From the NCBI GenBank assembly GCA_029204225.1, contig CM055100.1, positions 29,092,649-29,156,648 on the forward strand: 64,000 nt of DNA, in the 5' to 3' direction. Position 1 is the stretch's first letter. Each line of letters opens with the position of its first letter. Under the pieces are notes generated by a model, which made no database searches, was not told the origin of the DNA, and saw only the letters and a program-made list of their open reading frames with translations. This document shows positions 3,202-45,500 of the stretch, in pieces. The stretch is from Diphasiastrum complanatum. Lineage: Eukaryota > Streptophyta > Lycopodiopsida > Lycopodiales > Lycopodiaceae. Made by a program: the position numbers and the translations under genes.

Positions 3202-4240
3202 TGTTGGATTTTAATTTATTCCTAGTAACCTAAATTTATCTTCTGAGTACTCCTACACAATATAAATATTCACTCTCTACAATAGTCTATAGAAATGAAC
3301 AATTATTTGAAACAATCTACAGTTTTACAAGCATTGTCGAACAATTTGCAGAAATACACATAGATTCGAAGCCAAGCAATGAATCGACTCCAACACTCCA
3401 CACTCAAGTTCAAAGTCAAGCTGTCAAGCAAAACGATCGACATCAAATTAACACGATCGATTGTGTGCATTGTTCACTATCGACTATCAACAATCATCGA
3501 CTATCCACTATTGAACTATCGACACTATCAGACTGTCTCCACTATTGAATTGTCGAACACTATCAAACTATCAACTGTCGAATGGTATCACTCGAAATGG
3601 AGCTCTTTCTCTGTTGAATCAAATCCAAACTACATCACCATTCAAACATGCTACTATATATAGTCTAAATAGTTTAGTCTTATCTTGTAAACTAGGCTAC
3701 ATCGTGCTTAACACACCAGCTAGCCACGATCTCTGTAACCTTGTACATATATACAATATTAAAAAAAAGACAATGATGCGTGATTTAGAGTTTGAACAAG
3801 AACTCGATTGTATCAGAATTATCTGACTCCTCAAAGTTAGAGATTTTGAGAGAGAGTGAGAGTAATTCAAAGTGATAGAGATATTGTTTCAATCTACTAT
3901 AACAAGCATAGTAGGATCATAGCGCATAACACACTAGTACTGTGAACCATTATCGGGCACATGATTCACCCTTTTATGATCTGATCGTTGTTATCACAAT
4001 AGCTTAATATATAGATTTTCTTTGTTCTTCACGTGCATTAGTACTGTCGAATGCTCTCTTATTTGTTTCTCTTTTTCATTTTGATACCCAAATATTCTAC
4101 CAGTCAATCGAATGATCAAAGTAATTGTCTGAATTCAGTAGTTCAATTCAATCCTTATTGTATTCATTGTTTTTCTTTGTTTGGATATAACTCATACATC
4201 CATGAGGTGTCGAGTTCAATAATCATCTAAAGATCCAACA
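3202..4240 (+). repeat. 5' LTR of the truncated copia element
   Basis: The segment begins TGTTGGAT and ends ATCCAACA, perfect 8-bp terminal inverted repeats of the TG...CA type expected of an LTR, and it is followed three bases later by a tRNA primer site. Length is about 1039 bp. A TATA-like run (CTACTATATATAG) sits near 3650, a plausible U3 promoter. The 3460-3590 segment is a cluster of short TCGACTATC/GAACTATCGA near-palindromes. Confidence 0.8.
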
Positions 4241-4243
4241 AGG

Positions 4244-4256
4244 TGGTATCAGAGCA
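4244..4256 (+). other. Primer binding site for initiator-Met tRNA
   Basis: TGGTATCAGAGCA, three bases after the LTR end. It matches the canonical plant copia priming site complementary to the 3' end of initiator methionine tRNA. Confidence 0.85.
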
Positions 4257-4319
4257 GGTTTGAATTATCAATTGAATTCACAATTATTACCATTCTTAGA
4301 AGCCTTTCACTTTTGTTGG

Positions 4320-6475
4320 TAAGACGAAAGATAGGTCAAAGTTAGAATGCTTCTATTGTGGAATCAAAGGGCATTTTGCTAATGATTGCTTCAGGAAGAA
4401 GAGAGTCAAGGTGAGAAGCAAACCAATCTAACTATTGATAGATGGTGTTGATGAACAATTGTCAAATGATGCTTTTGTTATGTCATCATGCTTGTTGGCT
4501 AATCATGGAAACATTGATCCTTGGTGGATTGATAGTGGAGCTACATCACATATGACATTTCATGAGGAGTATTATGAACATCCTTGATGGCTTTTGAAGG
4601 TGACAAGAAGGTTATCTACACAGCCAATAATGGTGAGTGTGCAATCAAAGGAATTGCACAATTCCTATTTCCCTCTCTACTGATAGGAATATCAATTTGA
4701 AGGATGTTTTGTTCATTCCATATATTACTAAGAATCTTCTTAGTGTGAATCACTGATGCTTGACAAGAAATTCAAAGTGGAGTTTGTTGGTGATGCTTGT
4801 TTGATCAAGAAAGAGTATGAATTGATTGCAAAAGGGAAGAGGCAAAGTAAATTGTTCAAACTTGATGCTTGTGTTGTTGCTAACCAAGTTGGATGCATGG
4901 CAAAAGAGCAAATGTGCAAGAGGTATGGCACAAGAGGTTGGGACATCTCAATTACAAGTCATTGGAGGTGATGGCAAAAGGGGAAGTTGTTTTTGATCTC
5001 TTTAATAGTTCAATTTTTTCGTTCTTTTTGAGAAAGCCAAAGTTGTCCTTAAAACAAGTTGAAGGTGCCCTTAAAAAATTGGCGAAGGTGTCTTTAACAG
5101 TTTAACCCTTAAAAATAGAGGACCTTCAGGAATTTTCTCTCTCTTCGCATTTTTTGAGAAAATGCAAAAGGGGGCAAAAGTGTTGAAAATAGTTAAACTG
5201 TTGAACTGTGAACAAGTTGACTTCTTTCAAAATAATTGAACGGAAGAAGAAGGGGTAAGTGTTGCAGTTTTTGGGAAAGTGCAAAAAATGCGAACTGCGA
5301 CACTTAGTGTATTTTTGCGGACTGCTAAAAAATAATGTAAATCTGCAGACTTGTTCTAAATGCAAGTTTTGTGGAAGTCCATGAAGATGGCCAAGTCTTC
5401 AATGACTTCAAGTTATTAAACTTAACATCTGAACTTTAAATTATGATACAATTGGTTACCCTTTGCTGGAGATCAACCGGAAGTCTGTTGTAGACATTCT
5501 TCAGGTAATTGGTTGTCTAAGTTATGATTCACCAAGGAGGCAGCTGTGGGTTTGATTTCCAACACAATTCTCTAGCAAGATCAAGTTCTTGAGGAGTGAG
5601 AATAGTGGTGAGTACACTTCTACCGAGTTCAAGGCTTTTTGTGATGAGCATGGGATCAAGAGGGAGTACACAAGTCCAAGGACGCCACAACAAAATGGAG
5701 TGGCCGAGAGGAAGAATAGAACCTTATGTGAAGGAGCTAAAGCTATGAGGTTAGGTGCAAATCTTCCAAAACCATTTTGGGATCACGCTTTGTTGTGTGT
5801 TTTTTCTATGCAATAGGTGACCGAGTGCTATTTTGGATGGAAATACCCCTTTTGAGGTATTGTTTGGAAGAAGGCCGAGTGTCAAGTTCTTCAAAACTTT
5901 TGTATGTATATGCTATATCAACATCACTCTTGATGATAGAACCTAGGAGGATTCATCTTCAAAGAAAGGTGTGTTTGTTGGCTATAGTGAGGTAAGCAAG
6001 GCTTACAAAGTTTTTATTCCTTCTACTAAGAAAGTGATCATTGGAAGAGATGTCATTTTTGATGAGGAAAACTTTCCAAAAGTGTCTTCAAGTGGTAGTG
6101 TGGATGTTGGATCTAACATTCTTGATGATGGCATTGTTGATGATACTTTGGATGTTGATATTAAAGAGCCTAGTTCAAATCAAAAGCCAAGGAGGACATC
6201 AAGGAAAAGGGAACAACCTTTGAGACCCACTTATGATGAGAAAGGTAAGCAAGTTGTTGTTGGTACAGATTTTGCTTTCCTAACCTCTTTTGATGACCCT
6301 ACATGTGTAGATGAAGCAAGTCAAAAAGAGGAGTGGATTCAAGCAATGGATCTTGAGTATCAAGCTCTTATGGAAAATGAAACATGGAGATTGGTGGAAC
6401 TTCCAAAGGACAAGAAAGCTATTGGATGCAAATGGATCTTCAAGGTGAAGAGAAATCGAGAACAATGTCTCAATT
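4320..6475 (+). pseudogene. Copia gag-pol remnant (zinc knuckle, protease, integrase, start of RT)
   Basis: The remnant shows, in order: a zinc knuckle (CFYCGIKGHFANDC near 4350), the retropepsin active-site region (DPWWIDSGATSHMT near 4515), the GAG-pre-integrase signature (WHKRLGHLNYKSLE near 4928, in another frame), integrase core residues (SENSGEYTSTEF, then TPQQNGVAER, 5589-5715), the integrase C-terminal part (VFVGYSEVSKAYKVFIPS from 5974) and the reverse transcriptase entry (EWIQAMDLEYQALMENETW near 6330). Between these lie stop codons and frame changes. Only the last stretch, 5971-6477, is open for more than 150 codons. A full-length relative of the same order lies at 10690-14658. Confidence 0.85.
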
Positions 6476-10689: not shown

Positions 10690-13600
10690 ATGGCATCTAT
10701 AAATGCATATCTTTTGGATACTAATGAAAGGCTCAACAAAACTAACTATTCCATATGGAAAGTTAGAATGGAATCTATCATGATCATGCAAGATCTGATG
10801 GAAATTGTAAATGGTAAGGAGGGTGAACCTATTCATCCTCAAGAAAAAGCCAAATACATCAAGAGGTGCAATGTTGCACTACATTGCATAAAAATGAATG
10901 TTGCAAATGAACTCTTAAGAGAGGTAGGAGATTGCACTTCAGCTCAAGATGCTTGGGAGACTTTGCAAAAGGTCTATGAATCCAAGAACCAAACTAGAAT
11001 GTTAGCTTTGAAGAATCAAATCTATAGAAGCTATCAAAAGAAAGGAGAGAGTGCACATACTTTTGTCCTAAGAGTAAAGGAATTGAACAAAGAGCTAGCC
11101 TTTATAGGTGACCCTATCAAGGATGAAGAGCTTGTTCAACTCATATTGAATGGACTAAGCTTTGAATTTGACAATTTGGTTCAGGGATATGCAATTATGG
11201 GTAAGCTACCCATACTTGAAGAACTCCAAGGCACACTCATGACCGAGGAATCAAGAAGGAGCCAAATGCAAGAGAGGATGGATAGGCTTTCCATCCAAGG
11301 TGGAGATGACCAAGCTCTCTTCACCAAAGGCAAAGGCAAGTCCAAAGGCAAAGGATCAACATTCAAGAAGTATACAAAGCTTGAGGATCAAGAAGGACCC
11401 CCAAAGGCATCTCCATCAACCACCAAAGTCAAGAAGGACAAATCAAAGGTGAAGTGCTACTATTGTAGCAAGATGGGGCATTATGCCTCAGAATGCTTCA
11501 AGAGGAAGCAAGATCAAAGCCAAGCCAACATGAGCAAAGAGGAGGAGGAGGAGAGTTCACATGAGGACTCTCTCATGATGTCCATATTTTCTTCAACAAG
11601 CTTCAAAGGAGAAGATCCTTGGTGGATTGACTCGGGTGCTAGTTCACACATGACTAGTAAAAGGGAGTTTTTCTCTTCTCTCTTATCTTATGATGGACCT
11701 ATAAAGTCTATCTATACAGCAAATGATGAAGCTTGTAAGATTGAAGGAGTTGGTAGCATTCCCCTTTGCTTAGGATCTTCCAAAAAGATCAACATAGAAG
11801 GTGTTTTGTACATTCCTACAATAACAAAGAATCTACTAAGTGTTGGCCAAATGGTAGACAATGGTTTCAATGTTGACTTTGCTTCAAATGAATGTTTCAT
11901 CAATAAGAAGGGTAAGATAGTGGCTAAGGGCACTAGACTTGGCAAACTTTATAAGCTGGATGCATTTGTGGATACTAATGTTGTCATGTTGGCCGAGAAG
12001 AGCAAGATATCTACCTTTACTTTATGGCACAAAAGACTTGGACATGTCAACTCGGGTTCCATGGAGGCTATGATCAAGGAGGAGTATGCTTTAGGCCTAC
12101 CAAGGTCTATTGGGAAGGAAGACAAGGTTTGTGAAGCTTGTGCCTTATCCAAGGCACATAAGAAGGTGTTTCCTAACTCCATCACAAAGTCATCTCATCC
12201 TCTTGAACTCATACACTCGGATGTGCACATTGCTAGCACCAAATCTAATGGAGGTTCATCCATGTTTTTAACCTTCATTGATGACTACTCAAGATATTGT
12301 TGGGTGTTCTTACTTTCCTTCAAGTCTCAAGTATTTGATACTTTTGTAAAGTTCAAGTTGTTTGTGGAAAAGCATCATAATCATAGCATCAAGATTCTTA
12401 GAAGTGACAATGGTGGAGAATTCATCTCCAATGAGTTCAAGGCCTTTTGTGAGGAGGAAGGGATCAAGAAAGAGACTTCTTGTCCTTACACTCCTCAACA
12501 AAATGGAGTTGCTGAAAGAAGGAATAGAACATTATGTGAATGTTCTAAGGCTTTAAGATTAGATGCTTGTTTGCCCAAATCCTTTTGGGGTGAGTCTCTT
12601 GTATGTGCAAACTACTTGATGAATAGGGTGTCTTGCAAAGCAATTGAAGGCAAAACTCCATATGAGATGTTGTATGGAAAGAAACCCAATCTTAATCACT
12701 TGAAAGTTTTTGGGTGTATATGTTATGTGCATGTGCCATTGGAAACAAGAACCAAGGAGGATCCATCTTCCACAAGAGGGATCATGCTTGGATATGCAAG
12801 CTCAAGCAAGGGCTACAAAGTCTATCTCCCATCCTTGAACAAATTTGTTGTTTCAACGTATGTCATCTTTGATGAACATCATATGCATATGCTTGAAGAA
12901 GGCTCAAGTGCTCCAACAATCAAGAAGAAGATGGCCGAGGAGCAAGATCTTGGTTTTGAGGAGGAGCTCATGGAGGAGCAAGCACCAAACCCACCTATCA
13001 CACCAAGGAGATCTTCAAGGGCAAAAGTGGAGCCATCAAGGCTCACATATCAAGGCAAAGGACAGCAAGTTGAGGGTATCTCATCCACTTCTTATGCTTT
13101 ATCTAGTTTTGAAGAACCGTCTAATGTTGAAGATGCATTGAACTCCAAAGAATGGTATAAAGCTATGTTGGATGAGTATGATGCCTTGATTGAGAATGAA
13201 ACTTGGTTGCTTGTTGAGAGACCTCAAAGGAATGTAATAGGATGCAAGTGGGTCTTCAAGCTTAAGTTGAATGCAAATGGGAGTGTTAACAAACATAAAG
13301 CAAGATTAGTTGCAAAAGGTTATGCTCAAGAGAGAGGGATAGACTATGAGGAAACTTTTGCACCCGTGGCCAAGATGGTCACAATAAGACTAATCATTGC
13401 ACTTGCATCACATTTTGGATGGATTCTATGTCAAATGGATGTCTCTAATGCTTTCTTGAATGGTTTTTTGGAAGAGGATATCTATATGGAGCAGCCACAA
13501 GGGTTCATCAAGCATGGAATGGAGAACAAAGTATGTCATCTCCAAAGAAGCATCTATGGCTTGAAGCAAGCCTCGAGATCTTGGAATTCAAGACTACATT

Positions 13601-14658
13601 GCTATCTTATTTCACTTTCTTTTGTTCAAAGTGAATATGATCCCACTCTTTACATTAAGTTTGATGATGTTGGTATTGTACTTTTACTCATTTATGTAGA
13701 TGACATCATCATTAGTGGAAATAGTGTTGATGGTATTGAAAAAATCAAGATAGATCTATCCTTAGAGTTCAAGATGGTAGATCTAGGGTGTCTTCACTTC
13801 ATCTTAGGCATAGAAGTACTTAGAGAGTCTGATTTTATCTTTATAAGTCAAGTAAACTATGCTCAAAGTCTTTTGAAGAAGTTTAAGATGGAAGTATGCA
13901 AAAGTGTTGACACACCAATGGAGCAAGATGTAAAAGTGCCAAATGAAGATGATGAAAGATCCTTCATGGACATCACTTTGTTTAGGCAACTTATAGGTTC
14001 CTTAATGTGGATCACTATAACTAGACCAGATCTTAGCTTTAGTGTATGTAGGTTGAGCCAATCCATGCAAAAGCCATTGAATATCCATTGGAAAAAGGCT
14101 AAGAGGATTCTAAGATACATCTCGGGTACATTGGATTTTGGGATTCTATATAGAGGAGATGTGATTAACCTTCATGCATTTAGTGATTCAGATTTTGCAG
14201 GGGACAAGAGGGATAGGAAATCAACAAGTGCCTATTCAACTTTCATAGGAGAAGGTGTGGTTTCATGGCTTTCAAAAAAGCAAGAAACTATATCTCTATC
14301 TTCAACCGAGGCCGAGTACAAAGCTTTGACAACCACTACAAAGGAGGTACTTTGGATCAAGAGATTATTGGTGGAACTAAAGATCATGGATTCAGAGGAG
14401 GCACCAATCATCTACAATGACAATATATCAGCCCAACACCTTGCATCTAACCCAATCTTCCATGCAAGATCTAAGCACATTGAGATATGCCATCACTTTG
14501 TGAGAGAAATGGTGCAAGCCAAGGAGATTGCTTTGGAGCATGTTCCAAGCAATGAATGTGTAGCTGATCTACTTACTAAACCACTTCAAAAGACACCTTT
14601 TATGAAGTTCAGATCATCACTTGGAGTGATTAGTAAAGCAATGATTGAACCAAGCTAG
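10690..14658 (+). CDS. Ty1/copia gag-pol polyprotein, intact
   Basis: An uninterrupted 1322-residue polyprotein with all copia domains in order. Gag (UBN2-like) occupies roughly residues 1-210 (LNKTNYSIWKVRMES near 15). A CCHC zinc knuckle CYYCSKMGHYASEC is near 255-268. The protease active site WWIDSGASSHMT is near 310. GAG-pre-integrase WHKRLGHVN is near 445, with the paired CEAC later completing a His2-Cys2 site. The integrase core has HSDVHIAS (~505), RSDNGGEF (~568) and QQNGVAER (~600). Reverse transcriptase has QMDVSNAFLNG (~914) and the catalytic LIYVDDIIIS (~998). RNase H has AFSDSDFAGD (~1162) and LSSTEAEYKAL (~1205). Copies of this kind drive reverse transcription and integration of the element. 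I see no missing catalytic residue, so it could be functional, although the 3' LTR is truncated. Confidence 0.97.
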   Translation: MASINAYLLDTNERLNKTNYSIWKVRMESIMIMQDLMEIVNGKEGEPIHPQEKAKYIKRCNVALHCIKMNVANELLREVGDCTSAQDAWETLQKVYESKNQTRMLALKNQIYRSYQKKGESAHTFVLRVKELNKELAFIGDPIKDEELVQLILNGLSFEFDNLVQGYAIMGKLPILEELQGTLMTEESRRSQMQERMDRLSIQGGDDQALFTKGKGKSKGKGSTFKKYTKLEDQEGPPKASPSTTKVKKDKSKVKCYYCSKMGHYASECFKRKQDQSQANMSKEEEEESSHEDSLMMSIFSSTSFKGEDPWWIDSGASSHMTSKREFFSSLLSYDGPIKSIYTANDEACKIEGVGSIPLCLGSSKKINIEGVLYIPTITKNLLSVGQMVDNGFNVDFASNECFINKKGKIVAKGTRLGKLYKLDAFVDTNVVMLAEKSKISTFTLWHKRLGHVNSGSMEAMIKEEYALGLPRSIGKEDKVCEACALSKAHKKVFPNSITKSSHPLELIHSDVHIASTKSNGGSSMFLTFIDDYSRYCWVFLLSFKSQVFDTFVKFKLFVEKHHNHSIKILRSDNGGEFISNEFKAFCEEEGIKKETSCPYTPQQNGVAERRNRTLCECSKALRLDACLPKSFWGESLVCANYLMNRVSCKAIEGKTPYEMLYGKKPNLNHLKVFGCICYVHVPLETRTKEDPSSTRGIMLGYASSSKGYKVYLPSLNKFVVSTYVIFDEHHMHMLEEGSSAPTIKKKMAEEQDLGFEEELMEEQAPNPPITPRRSSRAKVEPSRLTYQGKGQQVEGISSTSYALSSFEEPSNVEDALNSKEWYKAMLDEYDALIENETWLLVERPQRNVIGCKWVFKLKLNANGSVNKHKARLVAKGYAQERGIDYEETFAPVAKMVTIRLIIALASHFGWILCQMDVSNAFLNGFLEEDIYMEQPQGFIKHGMENKVCHLQRSIYGLKQASRSWNSRLHCYLISLSFVQSEYDPTLYIKFDDVGIVLLLIYVDDIIISGNSVDGIEKIKIDLSLEFKMVDLGCLHFILGIEVLRESDFIFISQVNYAQSLLKKFKMEVCKSVDTPMEQDVKVPNEDDERSFMDITLFRQLIGSLMWITITRPDLSFSVCRLSQSMQKPLNIHWKKAKRILRYISGTLDFGILYRGDVINLHAFSDSDFAGDKRDRKSTSAYSTFIGEGVVSWLSKKQETISLSSTEAEYKALTTTTKEVLWIKRLLVELKIMDSEEAPIIYNDNISAQHLASNPIFHARSKHIEICHHFVREMVQAKEIALEHVPSNECVADLLTKPLQKTPFMKFRSSLGVISKAMIEPS

Positions 14659-18271: not shown

Positions 18272-19538
<1,267 letters not shown>

Positions 19539-22269: not shown

Positions 22270-22946
<677 letters not shown>

Positions 22947-25496: not shown

Positions 25497-25712
25497 TGCG
25501 TAATGGGTCTTTGACTTTTCCACATGCCATTTACAAAGCATAATCAGCAGTGTGGTTCTTTTGGACCAATGAGAAATTGCCACGTGGTAGTCTGACGCAC
25601 ACAGTTTGACGCGGACTGACGCGCAATCTGACGCGCGTTTGGAATGTGCTTCAAAATTTTATAATTTTTTAAAAAAAATCCAGTGACATTTTATGATTTT
25701 TAAAAAGCCCAA

Positions 25713-25800
25713 AAAGTGGGCGTAATGAGCACAAAGAATCCATTACATAGTATTTATTGGTTTTTGCCACAAAGCAACCCAAACAAATTACGCCCACTTT
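25713..25800. repeat. Short inverted repeat, 14-bp arms
   Basis: AAAGTGGGCGTAAT at 25713-25726 and ATTACGCCCACTTT at 25787-25800 are exact complements with a 60-bp loop. Confidence 0.85.
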
Positions 25801-26495: not shown

Positions 26496-29074
26496 ATGCG
26501 AACCAGTCCGAGGGTCTCAAAGCCCAAGGTGGAGAAGGAGCAGCTTTGGAAGACAAATGATCAGAGAGCCAACAAAGAAGGCTATCGACGCAACGTCTAC
26601 TGGGTTTCAGGGGACCTGTATAGAGGCGAATGGAAAGCTAACAAAAGAGATGGTTAAATAATAAACCTTGCTTAATTAGTCCTTACTATTGAACTAGATA
26701 TATTGCTTTGAAATTCGATTGCAGTGGATGAGGTGATTCAGGTGAAGGCTTACAGATAGACCAAGATTTGATGGGATACTTACATGGGCTAACAACAACT
26801 TATATTCTGAAAAAGTTTAGGGATGTTGCTTCCGATCATGGCCTTTATGATGTTAAATGTTGACGAGTGTGCAGGGTTAGGCGTTCATTTATATAATAAC
26901 GGCAACCGGTACGAAGGAGAATGGAAGAATGATAAGCAAGAAGTCAAAGGAGCACTTTTGGTTGTAGATGGAGGCAAATATCATCCTCTGTATAAAGGCG
27001 GCTGGAAGGGAGGCACTTTCCATGTGAGTATTTGCAGGTAATGTTCACTCCTTATGCTATAGGTCCACGGTCACTAGTCAATGCAGCATTTTTGTTAGTA
27101 CACGGTTATCATGTTCATTGCTCATGAACTATTGTAGTGGCCGCAGTATGAGAGTAAGCTTTTACTTAACAAGCTCAAGCTCTCTGATCTAAGCATATGC
27201 ATCAATCTCCAGAAAAGATGTGCTAGTTCACTGAGTCCTGATTTGCTTTCCATTTGAAGTGTAGAAACAGTGGAAACATGGAGTCTGGACGTTAACTGAT
27301 ATACTTGAGAAATTTTTGTTTCGTCGCCTGCTTATCTACTATTATTCCAAAGATATTGAAACAAACAATGCACACTCTGATAATTTTTTTGTGCAGTGAG
27401 AGATCAACCTCCGAAGCTGTCTAAACATTATAAGCTGCAGGCTGCAGTAATGCCTTCCAGCTTTTTCTTGCTTTCTCTCGAAATTTCTCTGGACTCATTT
27501 GAATGGCTTTATAATGCGGCTCAGCCAATTAACTTGGATTCTGTCTGTGTACCTATCGTGTACGAGAACGATCGGAGTAAAATGATAGCTTTTAATCGAG
27601 TTAGGACCTATCCATAGCTACGGCATAAGTCGATCTCTAGTATCTACGTGTATGCGAGGAAGGTAAACATGGGCAGTAGGCCTAGTATTGACGGTATAAC
27701 GTGCCAACAAACGAAGTTTGAGGTGGGCTGGTATAACTAGACGCTCGTATAGCCTTATAGAATCTGCTGCGAAACTTTTTTGAAAATTAGGTGAATCACT
27801 GCGATATCATCTATAAGTTTCAATTTTAAGCTAAAAGTTGCTACTTCGCAGAAGTGCATTAGCAATTTTCTGTTCAGTGTTTGAACTAACGCACGCTAAC
27901 CTTGAACTAAAACAAGCTGATTGATAGTAAAACTTTGCAAGAACAACTTTCTGTTCTATCTTCGAACTAAGATACGATAATTTTGAACTGAAACAAGCAA
28001 CTTGTAAAAGTTAAAAAATTAAATAGGTGGGAATGTCTCACTGTTGAATGTTCGAGGTACGTCTCATCTTATGTAGTTTAAGTGAATCTTATATTTTGTA
28101 GCACACTTCAGTAGTTAACTTTGGCGTTCTTCAAGTACCAGTTCATGTGTACACAACGAACAGTATACTGTGTAGCATTCGGGTACTGAAAACTTTGGCG
28201 TACTTCAAATACTCTAAGGACAAACCAGTGTCAGGGGCGCACAGAAGTATGGTGCCAGGTGGCAACGTTGCGATTCGCCACTTTGTATGATTCATAGTTT
28301 TGAAGGAGCCATGCTATTTTTTCCGACTATTTCTGTACAAGCGTAGTGTTATATGTAGCTTGGTGCAGATAATTAGAAGTTATGGCAATTTCCATGATAA
28401 CGTGTTGGTGTAGGGAGCAGGTGTATTATACGGAGAACAAGGAGAAATCTATGATGGGCAGTTTGAACAAGGGATGAGGAGTGGATTGGGCAAGCAGACT
28501 TACTGGTGCCCCACCTCAAAAGCTTATCACAACTATTCCGGACAGTGGGCAAAGGACAAGCGTGAAGGCTTTGGGACATTGAAAAAGGGTAAAGTCTGCT
28601 ATGTTCACGAACTTCCGAGAATCGAACGTTTTCTCTAAGTTCATTGCACTGAGCTTCATAACTCCTGATCTGATTTGCTTCATATAGATGGACCAAATCT
28701 GTTTCACTTCTCCAAGTCAATTCAGACATGCTTAATATGCAAAAATTGGGATAAATCAACAAGCTGAAGTAAATTTATATAATCCACTTTGAACACCTGC
28801 CACGCAATCATAATTTGAACCTCTTCACAATGTGGCAGTTAACGGTGAGTCATACGAGGGATTGTTCAAGAATGACCTCAGAGATGGAAAAGCGGTACTT
28901 TACTATGCAGATGGAAAGTCCAAATATGAAGGCTTATGGAAGGAAGATCAAGCTGTCTGCGGGGCATATCTTAAAATAGACGGAGGCTGCCTGCCTCTCC
29001 TAGAGGTTGAAAAGTCTCAGCAAATAGCTGACACTTTCATTGCCGAAGCCATTCAACTCACTAGCAACAAATAA
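26496..29074 (+). CDS. MORN-repeat protein, MORN3-like, four exons
   Basis: Exons 26496-26652, 26875-27023, 28414-28588 and 28839-29074 join in phase across GT-AG introns of 222, 1390 and 250 bp, giving about 238 residues. The ATG at 26496 is the one in frame with the repeats. After a basic N-terminus (MRTSPRVSKPKVEKEQLWK) come about seven MORN-type units: YRGEWKANKRDG, YEGEWKNDKQE, YKGGWKGGTFHG, YDGQFEQGMRSG, YSGQWAKDKREG, YEGLFKNDLRDG and YEGLWKEDQAVCG. The Leu-Trp-Lys start, the VYWVSGDLY entry into the first repeat and the overall length fit animal MORN3, a protein tied to cilia and sperm. MORN repeats are short beta-hairpins that bind membranes or protein partners. I infer a role in flagellated sperm; the sequence alone does not prove it. 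The second repeat has Val where Gly is usual (QEVKG). Confidence 0.85.
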
Positions 29075-30355
<1,281 letters not shown>

Positions 30356-41372: not shown

Positions 41373-42530
41373 TTATTGTTCTGAACTGGGGAACATGTCA
41401 TGACATGTTGCTTCCAGCAATGAAATTATAACCTGAACAAGATAGCGCTCTGCATCGGAGTGTGCTCTTCCACTCACCCATCTTTCTAGAACCATATCAA
41501 AGGCTTGGCGAAGTTCCAGCAACAATAGACCTGCTCTTCGGTCAATATGAAACTTGAGCCAACCTTCAACTTCTAGAAGCATCCAGTCACCACTGATTGC
41601 AGCTCCAGAATCTGAAGAAATAGAGACATTCCAGCCTAACAGGACTAAAGCTAGTGGAGGAAGAAGGGTGCAACCACGAAGATAAATCTGACTGGTCTGG
41701 ACCTTCTCCTGATATATGAGATAATAGTGCTTATTTGGGTCTAAATGCTTCTCGTTCACAACAGATGTTGGATGGATAAATACTCGTCCATTTTGCACAC
41801 AAAATCCAAGGCGCCATCGGTAAGCATGCTGTGTGGCATTCTTCATGCCCTTTGATTCTCGGCACAGCTCTGACTTTGCAATGTTTGGATACAAGCCAGC
41901 AGTAAGGATGCATCGTGCCACATGTGTCCTTGCTTCAAGATCAGAAGTTACCCAGGTGTCAAAAACCCTTGCCTCAGTTATCGTTTTCTCAAACTGATAC
42001 CTCATTCCTGCAATCAGTTTCATTGTCATTGGAGCCAAGAAATGCCTCTCACAAAATGAATGTCCTTGACCAGCAAGATTTGCTTTTTTCCACTGTTCAA
42101 AAGCACTAACTAGGACTAGATGATCACTTGCATATGCACTATTTATTGCAAAGTTTTCTCGCATTTTATCCGCCTCGTCCCGCTTGGATATGGGCACAAC
42201 AAATGGATCTTTAAAACAAGCAGCAGCTGCAATTGTTAGTAACGGATCAAGGCATCCAAGCAATGTCCCATAAATGAGCATTTTCCCAAATCGAGGATGA
42301 ACAGCCAATTTGGCCAATGTCCTCCCTAATGGTGTCAAATTTTCATATTGGTCGATGGCACCAAGTTGCCGAAGTACCTTGACAGCAGCAAATACAGATG
42401 TTCCTTTTGGTGGCTGTAAGGCCTTAGAAAGAAACATTGCAATATCATTCATGCCAGTGTTGACAGCCATAGTGCCTTTTAGTTGGGACATGTTACTTCC
42501 AGGACTGGCCGCTTCTGCAACCTGGGAGGA
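41373..42530 (-). CDS. Helicase last exon: ratchet and OB-fold region, stop
   Basis: Begins [20 protein letters not shown] after the acceptor TTGGCAG and runs 385 codons to the stop. It includes [60 protein letters not shown] and the OB-type segment [20 protein letters not shown]. The downstream end is Leu-rich and helical. Confidence 0.95.
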   Translation of the reverse strand, partial: SSQVAEAASPGSNMSQLKGTMAVNTGMNDIAMFLSKALQPPKGTSVFAAVKVLRQLGAIDQYENLTPLGRTLAKLAVHPRFGKMLIYGTLLGCLDPLLTIAAAACFKDPFVVPISKRDEADKMRENFAINSAYASDHLVLVSAFEQWKKANLAGQGHSFCERHFLAPMTMKLIAGMRYQFEKTITEARVFDTWVTSDLEARTHVARCILTAGLYPNIAKSELCRESKGMKNATQHAYRWRLGFCVQNGRVFIHPTSVVNEKHLDPNKHYYLIYQEKVQTSQIYLRGCTLLPPLALVLLGWNVSISSDSGAAISGDWMLLEVEGWLKFHIDRRAGLLLLELRQAFDMVLERWVSGRAHSDAERYLVQVIISLLEATCHDMFPSSEQ

Positions 42531-45500
42531 CTGCCAATCACAAACAAAGTTATATTACAGCCCCCCCTCCCCCACATACACACACCTGGCATTATAATTA
42601 ATCCCACGTTACTACTAGCGAACTGTTCATTATTTCATAACCTTGGAGCTGCAACTTATAGCATACAATACTGACGAATACTTCATTGGTAGTGATCCCT
42701 CAATTTGTATCCAAGCCTACTCTAGTATGAGTGTAATTGAGGTTGTCAACTTGCACAAGTGAAAAATTCCTGAGAACTTTGAACTAACCACATTGGGTGC
42801 TGCAATAGCTTTGATCTGCAAGCACAACTCTTCAAGAGGTACACGCTGCATTTCAGGAATCTGATGCTCCAACATCCTTGCATGCACCTGTGACCTTCTT
42901 CAAAAATAATCAGCTTTTCCACCAAAAATTGGTGATAACCTTTACATGCACAAAATTTGAGCACTCTTCCTAACCTAGAGGCATTTCTCTTCAGCAGAAG
43001 AAACATTGTGTGCATAAAAACTTCAAGAATCTGCAAGAACCTATCAATTAAGTTTTCCAAGATTGTATTTCACTGACATGGATATATGTAGCACCAGTTG
43101 GAGTTTCAAATTTCGTGTATTACTGTTGTCAATGATATAGAAATTCTGACGTCTCTAAGAACTTGGTCTTCTGAGCACGGAGAGGAGAGTTATATGCATA
43201 TCCTGGGTAGCTACTTGGTCCTTGGGTCTCCATGTTATTATTAACATTTCGACTTCATGGTTTGTAGCCTTATGAACCCATCATTTATTTAGCCAAATTA
43301 TTTCTCACATTTATGTCTTGTGCAGCTATTATTGGGACCTAATTAAGAGTCACAGATCTCTAGCCTTAATTTAGGGCTCCAGAAAATATGAACAAGATGT
43401 GTTTGGAGATTAGACAGTTGCTTAGATCGGCTATCATATTCCTGTTTAAATTTGTCAGCTCTTTCACATTTGTTTCAGCTGGGATACAGTCATCCATCAT
43501 ATTCAGCTTAATCAGAATTCCTGTCACTATTTTTTAAAGTGTTATCAGGTTGTTTTGATCGTAACTTGTTATGTCTAGGATATTTTAAGGCATAAAAGAA
43601 ATGAACACCTCAGGCGATACAAAGCTTAATATCCAGGCTCAATGATTTTGTCCGATCATTCTCAAACCATTCAACTGATATCAACAAAAAACAACCAAAT
43701 GCTTGGATAAAAAATGCAAACTTCAAACTGCCAATGGAATCAAAAACAAATTTCTGCACCTACAACATTGCAAAGTACAAAAGTGCCAAAGTTCAACCCA
43801 TAGACACAAACAAATTCTCTTTTTAACAACAGAACAATCAATACGAACAAATATTTTGAGAAAAGCAAAACCCACATCTCTTGTGTACAGTCGAAAACAA
43901 AAACCAGCTTGAACACGTCCTGCTCGACCCTGCCGTTGACGAGCACTAGCCTGAGATGTCCACTGCAAGAACATTTTGTCACATGTCTCACATTGCATGT
44001 AAATCCGTCAAAGATATTGTACCCCCAAAAAAATAATCTCAAAACAATACTGCACTCAGTCAGACTGTTTTCCTGCTGAGTGGAATATGGATCAATACAT
44101 TAATTAGGTCATTGGTGTCCACCTTGCTTGGCCCCAGACCACTAAACTTGCATGCAATGATGCAAATAATAGAAGCCAATCAACTATCCCTCAAATTCTT
44201 GCTTCAAATGAAACTATGCATAAAAAGGTGAACAACAAATATAAGGAAAATGTGAACTTTATTGACTATTGAAAATTATTACTTTTTGAGATCCCACCAA
44301 AGCATTGTTAATCTGTGTAGTCACCTGAACTCTCATTGTCGTCATATTGCGTGATGGGTCAAACTGCCGATGCTTTATTTTTCCACAATCAACAACGTAC
44401 ACGACGTCATCAATTGTTACACTTGTCTCTGCAATATTTGTAGCTAACACAACCTGAAAATCAAAATCAAGGATTACAATCAAAGCTCAGCAGAGTAAAA
44501 CAAATTTAACCACAAAGTTTTACAATAGTGTCTCACCTTACGCATCCCACCAGGTGGATGAGTAAAAGCACCACGTTGTTCACCTGCTGAGAGTTGGGAA
44601 TGCAATGCCATGATGGCCATGCCCTTGCTTGCTGGCGTTTTAGATAGCCTATCCCTTAGCATTGCTATCATATCCCAGCCCTAATAGCATCATGCAACAT
44701 GCAAGATTAACACTGGGCATTGCAATGTTCACAGGTCGAAGTAAACAAGACTGTTGCAACAAGCATTGACCTGTCATAAGTTTCAATCACAAAACTCACA
44801 GGCAGAAAACATAAAATTGCTCCAGCACCCTTTGCAAAGTACTGTGCAATCCAGGATATAACAGCAGCTGCAAGCTCGAAATCAATATCCTCTTCATCTG
44901 AACATCCTAGCTTTCTCTGTCTTGTAGCTGGTGGAAAAAATTGTCCCATGAGCTGTGGTAAATCTTCCAAATAGTAAACTTGTACAGGATGAATCATTCC
45001 TGGAATGTTGACATGAGGGCAACCACCGAAATACCTAGAACCGGCTCAATCTCAGTACCAACAAAATGAGAGAATAACAAATGACAATCGTAAGTCCACC
45101 ACAATCTTGCCATCCTTTTCAATTTGTAATGGTGAATGTCTAAAATCAATCTTGAACCGTGAAAACATGCAAGATGATACAAGAAAATAATTTAATTACT
45201 TTTTTGTTTAACATAAGAAAGATTGCAACAAATATCAAAAAATTTACAATAATTGGACTATGATGACCACATATACTATGTTGGAAATTGCACATTATAG
45301 TAGCTTATAACTTTTCAAAACATCTGTGAGCGTAGTTTTGTCAAATATGTATAAATCATTTGCTCTCAAAATAATTGTATGTTATGATGAATCTTGTAGT
45401 TGGTTTCCTCTCCTACCTTCAAACCATAGTTGCAGCGAATCGCGATTCGCCAGCTTCGCGATTCGGGAAGCGCGATTCTGCAAATCGCAATTCGCTGCAG

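Follow-up and report, generated by a model that had tools for sequence, protein, structure and literature searches.

A land-plant orthologue, by sequence, of the axonemal MORN protein FAP207/MORN3 in Diphasiastrum complanatum and its proposed place at the radial-spoke base of sperm

Results

A four-exon gene encodes a protein with seven MORN units

The window analysed here is a stretch of 64,000 nucleotides from the Diphasiastrum complanatum genome (C9:29092649-29156648 of a 1.745-Gb assembly with 5176 contigs). It carries a MORN-repeat gene on the + strand, which starts with the ATG at position 26496 and stops with the TAA ending at 29074. The joined exons comprise 717 nucleotides including the stop codon and encode 238 residues without internal stops. 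All three introns are bordered by GT..AG, and the G+C content is 46% in the coding sequence versus 38% in the introns. The gene is arranged as follows:

26496..26652, + strand: exon 1, with the start codon, then LWKTNDQRANKEG as the N-terminal module, and the beginning of MORN unit 1 as far as KRD(G)
26653..26874, + strand: intron 1, 222 bases, with a weak donor GTTAAA (ATG/GTTAAA) and the acceptor TGCAG
26875..27023, + strand: exon 2, with the rest of MORN unit 1, unit 2 and the beginning of unit 3
27024..28413, + strand: intron 2, 1390 bases, donor GTGAGT
28414..28588, + strand: exon 3, with the rest of unit 3, unit 4 and most of unit 5
28589..28838, + strand: intron 3, 250 bases, donor GTAAAG
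28839..29074, + strand: exon 4, with the rest of unit 5, the complete units 6 and 7 (the latter containing the CG pair), the predicted C-terminal helix and the TAA

The open frames of the window were compared with FAP207, a MORN protein of the Chlamydomonas axoneme. Only four of the 2069 frames matched, one for each exon of the gene (E = 3.6e-12, 8.6e-8, 1.4e-5 and 2.6e-7 for exons 1 to 4). After Markov shuffling of the window, none of 50 versions matched FAP207 at E<10. A scan of the window revealed no tRNA and no RNA family at the gathering score. An earlier note, made from the letters of this DNA, had described a four-exon gene of about 238 residues and seven MORN units with this start and stop; exon joining, intron borders and motif scan all agree with that description. 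The gene is real and apparently intact, and its earlier label, MORN3-like, appears correct; more exactly, this is apparently a plant FAP207/MORN3.

The motif scan placed seven YxGxW-type units at residues 42, 65, 92, 115, 143, 166 and 190. Pfam detected MORN with E = 1.5e-28, six stretches passing individually, and no other family above the cut-off, neither a kinase nor an FtsZ-like domain. MORN3 and FAP207 are likewise proteins of ~240 residues with one seven-unit MORN array, and they too have a CG pair in the last unit, here at residues 201-202; the CG criterion was derived in this analysis from four sequences. The predicted model ends in a C-terminal helix (residues 217-236) of low confidence, with a predicted local distance difference test score (pLDDT) of 47-63 by blocks. 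The C-terminal 52 residues searched alone gave one match, to a thaumatin-like allergen (E = 0.44), which was taken as chance.

The protein is read as an orthologue of MORN3/FAP207

To identify relatives of the window protein, we searched 177,635 distinct PDB sequences using phmmer and obtained 25 matches at E<=0.01. The top matches were Chlamydomonas FAP207 (2.3e-39), bovine MORN3 (9.9e-31) and human MORN3 (3.4e-29), followed by MORN1 of Plasmodium, Trypanosoma and Toxoplasma (1.2e-26 to 4.7e-24). A chain labelled phosphatidylinositol 4-phosphate 5-kinase (PIP5K) reached only 1.9e-8. When FAP207 was the query, the best matches after itself were bovine MORN3 (2.9e-41) and human MORN3 (2.8e-38). 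The nearest solved relative by score is the green-algal FAP207, while bovine MORN3 has a slight lead in identity (75/189 residues pairwise and 74/189 in a four-way alignment, versus 70/198 for FAP207). In the four-way alignment the window protein was colinear with FAP207/MORN3 across the whole repeat array.

The 41 residues ahead of the first YxGxW motif contain the pattern LWK..D..A.K.G. Searching PDB with residues 1-40 returned just three of the 177,635 sequences at E<=1, namely FAP207 (4.6e-6) and two MORN3 sequences (0.009 and 0.016), in keeping with the earlier remark that the start (Leu-Trp-Lys) resembles that of MORN3.

An AlphaFold2 model was made with an eight-row alignment; the single-sequence model was unusable (pLDDT 33.9). 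The top two Foldseek matches of the model were both axonemal MORN3 (human 8j07 chain c1 and bovine 9fqr chain MS). The structural alignment with 8j07 chain c1 extends to model residue 233, into the low-confidence helix.

MORN repeats are alike across proteins, and the orthology therefore rests on two main lines, the N-terminal module and an alignment that is colinear over the full length; the fold adds a third line that is compatible with them. Judged by sequence, the module before the repeats appears to discriminate best among MORN proteins. We read the window gene as a MORN3/FAP207 orthologue on these grounds, the predicted fold being compatible. The MORN3 assignment of the earlier note is upheld by the PDB matches, the colinear alignment and the agreeing fold, and the comparison it proposed with other MORN proteins placed FAP207 and then MORN3 ahead of MORN1 and of the PIP5K-named chain.

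Among GTDB contigs, 24 stretches matched, and two bacterial MORN proteins from these served as outgroups. Six peptide patterns searched in viral contigs gave two matching stretches, neither a relative. Genes of this kind are already known, and within their family the window gene is unremarkable. No treatment of land-plant FAP207 was found in the literature searched, which covered part of the matching papers and left subscription journals mostly outside, and the main text of PMC10266980 does not mention a FAP207/MORN3 protein.

A second, diverged copy lies on C19

A genome search with FAP207 found one further place with the N-terminal module, on C19. This copy B has four exons, all with GT..AG borders, and encodes 242 residues:

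C19:12452345-12452528 (L029 2346-2529): copy B exon 1
C19:12458665-12458813 (L029 8666-8814): copy B exon 2
C19:12468382-12468556 (L033 8383-8557): copy B exon 3
C19:12485306-12485526 (L035 5307-5527): copy B exon 4

Exons 2 and 3 are equal in length in both copies (149 and 175), and the intron positions are therefore common to both. The introns of copy B have expanded and now measure about 6, 10 and 17 kb; they contain retrotransposon-like frames. The two proteins have the same residue at 120 of 229 aligned positions (52%). The proportion of differing sites was 0.293 for nonsynonymous (pN) and 0.782 for synonymous (pS, saturated) sites, giving pN/pS 0.375 (bootstrap 0.30-0.46); no synonymous distance is given because pS exceeds the Jukes-Cantor limit. 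By these sequence comparisons the duplication is old and the pair has been subject to purifying selection, the figure describing the pair and not either branch.

A search with the window protein recovered the window gene, copy B, an exon-4 fragment ~3 kb past copy B and exon-4 fragments on C3 and C4082. The latter two (L062 4693-5224 on C3 and L063 about 3360-4413 on C4082) share about 99% identity. They carry intron 3 and part of exon 4 (window 28613-28960) at about 81% identity to the window gene, and this piece adjoins a segment resembling window 25501-25746. The arrangement suggests that a fragment of the window gene was captured or rearranged.

These incomplete copies of the intron 3 and exon 4 region, together with the weak first donor site and the unit 2 sequence of the window copy (QEVKG, where copy B has REGHG), could suggest that the window copy is decaying and that the C19 copy is the working gene. 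We consider this highly improbable: the frame of the window copy is open throughout, its introns are GT..AG, and it is the window copy that retains LWK..DQ in the N-terminal module, where copy B has RWK..DL. The pN/pS ratio, as a property of the pair, cannot be assigned to one branch.

Other MORN loci score lower and lack the module

The genome holds 39 MORN matches at E<=0.001, and MORN arrays have a common fold and motif. The window protein could accordingly be MORN3-like by its repeats only, that is, a plant-type MORN protein of the PIP5K-like or Arabidopsis MORN3/MRF1 kind with a role outside cilia. We compared it with 20 other MORN loci (L003-L010, L030-L032 and L064-L072), leaving out C2930, C1004 and C1942, whose scores equalled those of included contigs; these loci were scored per open frame, the window gene and copy B as joined proteins. 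Against FAP207 the window protein scored 388 and copy B 385, versus 107-270 for the best frames of the other loci. The module scored 92 in the window protein and 76 in copy B, at most 47 in the 902 frames of the other loci, where that score came from a frame without MORN repeats, and at most 45 when the window protein was shuffled 1000 times.

Some of the 20 loci bear the motif YDLMLNLQLGIR, by which we take them to be PIP5K-type; no kinase domain was seen in the five frames scanned from other MORN loci. For the window protein itself, a PIP5K-type identity was rejected on the Pfam result (MORN only), the end of the frame at 29074 and the scores. ARC3-type MORN proteins have an FtsZ-like domain before the array; this identity was rejected likewise on Pfam and scores, and on the 41 residues ahead of the first motif. 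The earlier note had named a best match to PIP5K- or ARC3-type proteins as the contrary outcome, and so far the scores do not point that way. One of the other loci, L070, contains at about 3389-4448 (-) (C9:56111888-56112947) a multi-exon MORN gene without the MORN3 module, which might encode a radial-spoke-head MORN protein.

Several results nonetheless count against orthology with MORN3/FAP207. In the exon-wise genome search with FAP207, ten places ranked above window exon 1, some other MORN loci having better single-exon E-values than the window gene. This search puts long unsplit arrays first, and no ranking was based on sums of repeat scores because long arrays gain by repeat number. With FAP207 as query, Plasmodium MORN1 (5.8e-38) came close behind MORN3; in the structure comparison of the model, MORN1 equals MORN3 by Z; and a bacterial MORN array scores 284 against FAP207. 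When the repeats were permuted, 14 of 5040 orders other than the native one scored at least as high against FAP207, and 25 did so against MORN3. Furthermore, the flowering-plant gene AT1G21920 (MRF1) is named MORN3 in a Nicotiana benthamiana leaf study (PMC12404439). With the module confined, among the loci compared, to the window gene and copy B, and with MORN as the sole Pfam family, we regard a repeat-only resemblance and a role outside cilia as very improbable, and retain the assignment to MORN3/FAP207.

The genome contains exons of spoke and inner-arm proteins

We next looked at other axonemal proteins. RSP3 exons were present on C20 in two inverted copies (profile positions 9-152 of 229), RSP4/6 exons on C20 (92-480 of 493, with gaps), exons of the axonemal dynein light chain p28 on C17 in two copies (6-186 of 187, gap at 132-143) and one FAP206 exon on C19 (193-239 of 272). 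Some RSP3, p28 and RSP4/6 matches read through one stop. None of 14 control genomes matched any of the four. The CFAP91 domain had no match in this genome and none in the controls either, so that its absence is not implied. Exons of RSP3, RSP4/6, p28 and FAP206 are what a plant with swimming sperm should have.

The RSP3 copies, C20:16063573-16065648 (-) and C20:16173043-16175118 (+), are inverted, lie ~110 kb apart and have equal scores. Those of p28, C17:2288007-2290484 and 2460720-2463198 (both -), are direct, ~173 kb apart and also equal in score. The paired loci reflect either recent duplication or assembly redundancy.

Surroundings of the gene

The window also contains Copia elements, one of them at 10690-14658 with an open frame of 1322 codons that includes gag, integrase and reverse transcriptase domains. 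Part of a helicase gene, probably of the DEAH type, lies at 41373-42554 (-) and encodes its HA2 and OB-fold domains. GA/CT dinucleotide tracts of ~100-270 bases, three of the four perfect, occur at 18801-18918, 19216-19486, 22509-22619 and 30248-30350; similar tracts are found in frames of L003, L004 and L030, as Glu-Arg runs.

Discussion

A possible radial-spoke-base protein in plant sperm

Studies of other organisms place this family at the radial spokes. Chlamydomonas FAP207 was modelled at the base of radial spokes 1 and 2 (RS1 and RS2), dynein c docking to RS2 via FAP207 and p28, and Tetrahymena mutants that lose dynein c also have a lowered level of Cfap207 (PMC12399478). For mouse MORN3, the fitted position is likewise the RS2 base (PMC10774353). 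In Emiliania huxleyi, a MORN3 homologue stands in a table of highly haploid-specific transcripts, beside flagellar components (PMC2784329). Sperm are the only flagellated cells of seedless vascular plants (PMC6027899).

We propose that the window gene is very probably the land-plant FAP207/MORN3 orthologue and that its product would serve the sperm flagellum as a spoke-base adaptor, a role assigned by analogy. The product would be a ciliary axoneme protein made of a single MORN sheet and located, like FAP207, at the RS1/RS2 base on the doublet microtubule. There it may form part of the seat where inner-arm dynein c docks at RS2 via p28, and may thus help relay spoke signals to the inner motors. 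Sperm is the sole ciliated cell expected in this plant, and the gene should therefore be on in the antheridium, where its expression may be limited to sperm. Since Morn3 knockout mice are fertile (PMC6735960), a strong phenotype is not to be presumed.

The protein might alternatively act while sperm are being built, on manchette-like microtubules and not at the spoke base, as proposed for mouse MORN3 with MEIG1; mouse MORN3 is found in the manchette, and its placement there is MEIG1-dependent (PMC4352978). However, structures from Chlamydomonas, human respiratory cilia and bovine sperm put MORN3/FAP207 in the axonemal repeat, and the fertility of the knockout mice also speaks against a manchette role, which we judge to be unlikely by a wide measure. 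A place at the spoke base remains the preferred reading.

An intact plant version of a cilium protein suggests that the plant probably still makes swimming sperm, and the gene could serve as a marker for such sperm in a land plant. It is also a candidate component of the spoke base in plant sperm, where the spokes exert their effect on inner dyneins. The paper on the Cycas genome used 58 flagella-related genes and reports Ginkgo to be without RSP2, RSP3, RSP9 and RSP11 (PMC9023351). Tracing FAP207 across cycads, Ginkgo and conifers would show whether the spoke base is lost along with the spokes.

Comparison with known systems

Within the same genome, the 20 other MORN loci have MORN repeats in common with the window gene, but lack the N-terminal module and score lower against FAP207. 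The likeness of flowering-plant MORN3/MRF1 (AT1G21920 and the Nicotiana benthamiana gene) is known from the name and the MORN motif only (PMC12404439). Human and bovine MORN3 (8j07 chain c1 and 9fqr chain MS) have the N-terminal module and seven units in order, as in the window protein, and bovine MORN3 is about 39-40% identical to it.

Chlamydomonas reinhardtii FAP207 (PDB 7jts, 7ju4 and 8glv) is colinear with the window protein over residues 12-209, with 35% identity in a comparison that ends at the last unit and excludes the tail. The two have in common the N-terminal module QLWKTxDQxAxKEG, a last MORN unit with CG and a longer loop between units 4 and 5; relative to the plant protein this loop is 2 residues longer in FAP207 and ~5 residues shorter in bovine MORN3. 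The place of FAP207 has been seen in the Chlamydomonas axoneme, whereas the plant protein is known here from its gene. A single FAP207 is described in Chlamydomonas, where it serves both spokes. A split of the job between two old copies in D. complanatum, the window copy and the C19 copy serving different radial spokes (e.g. RS1 and RS2) or sperm stages, would differ from this; we think such a split has a small chance of being correct, and with both copies present in one genome it can be tested.
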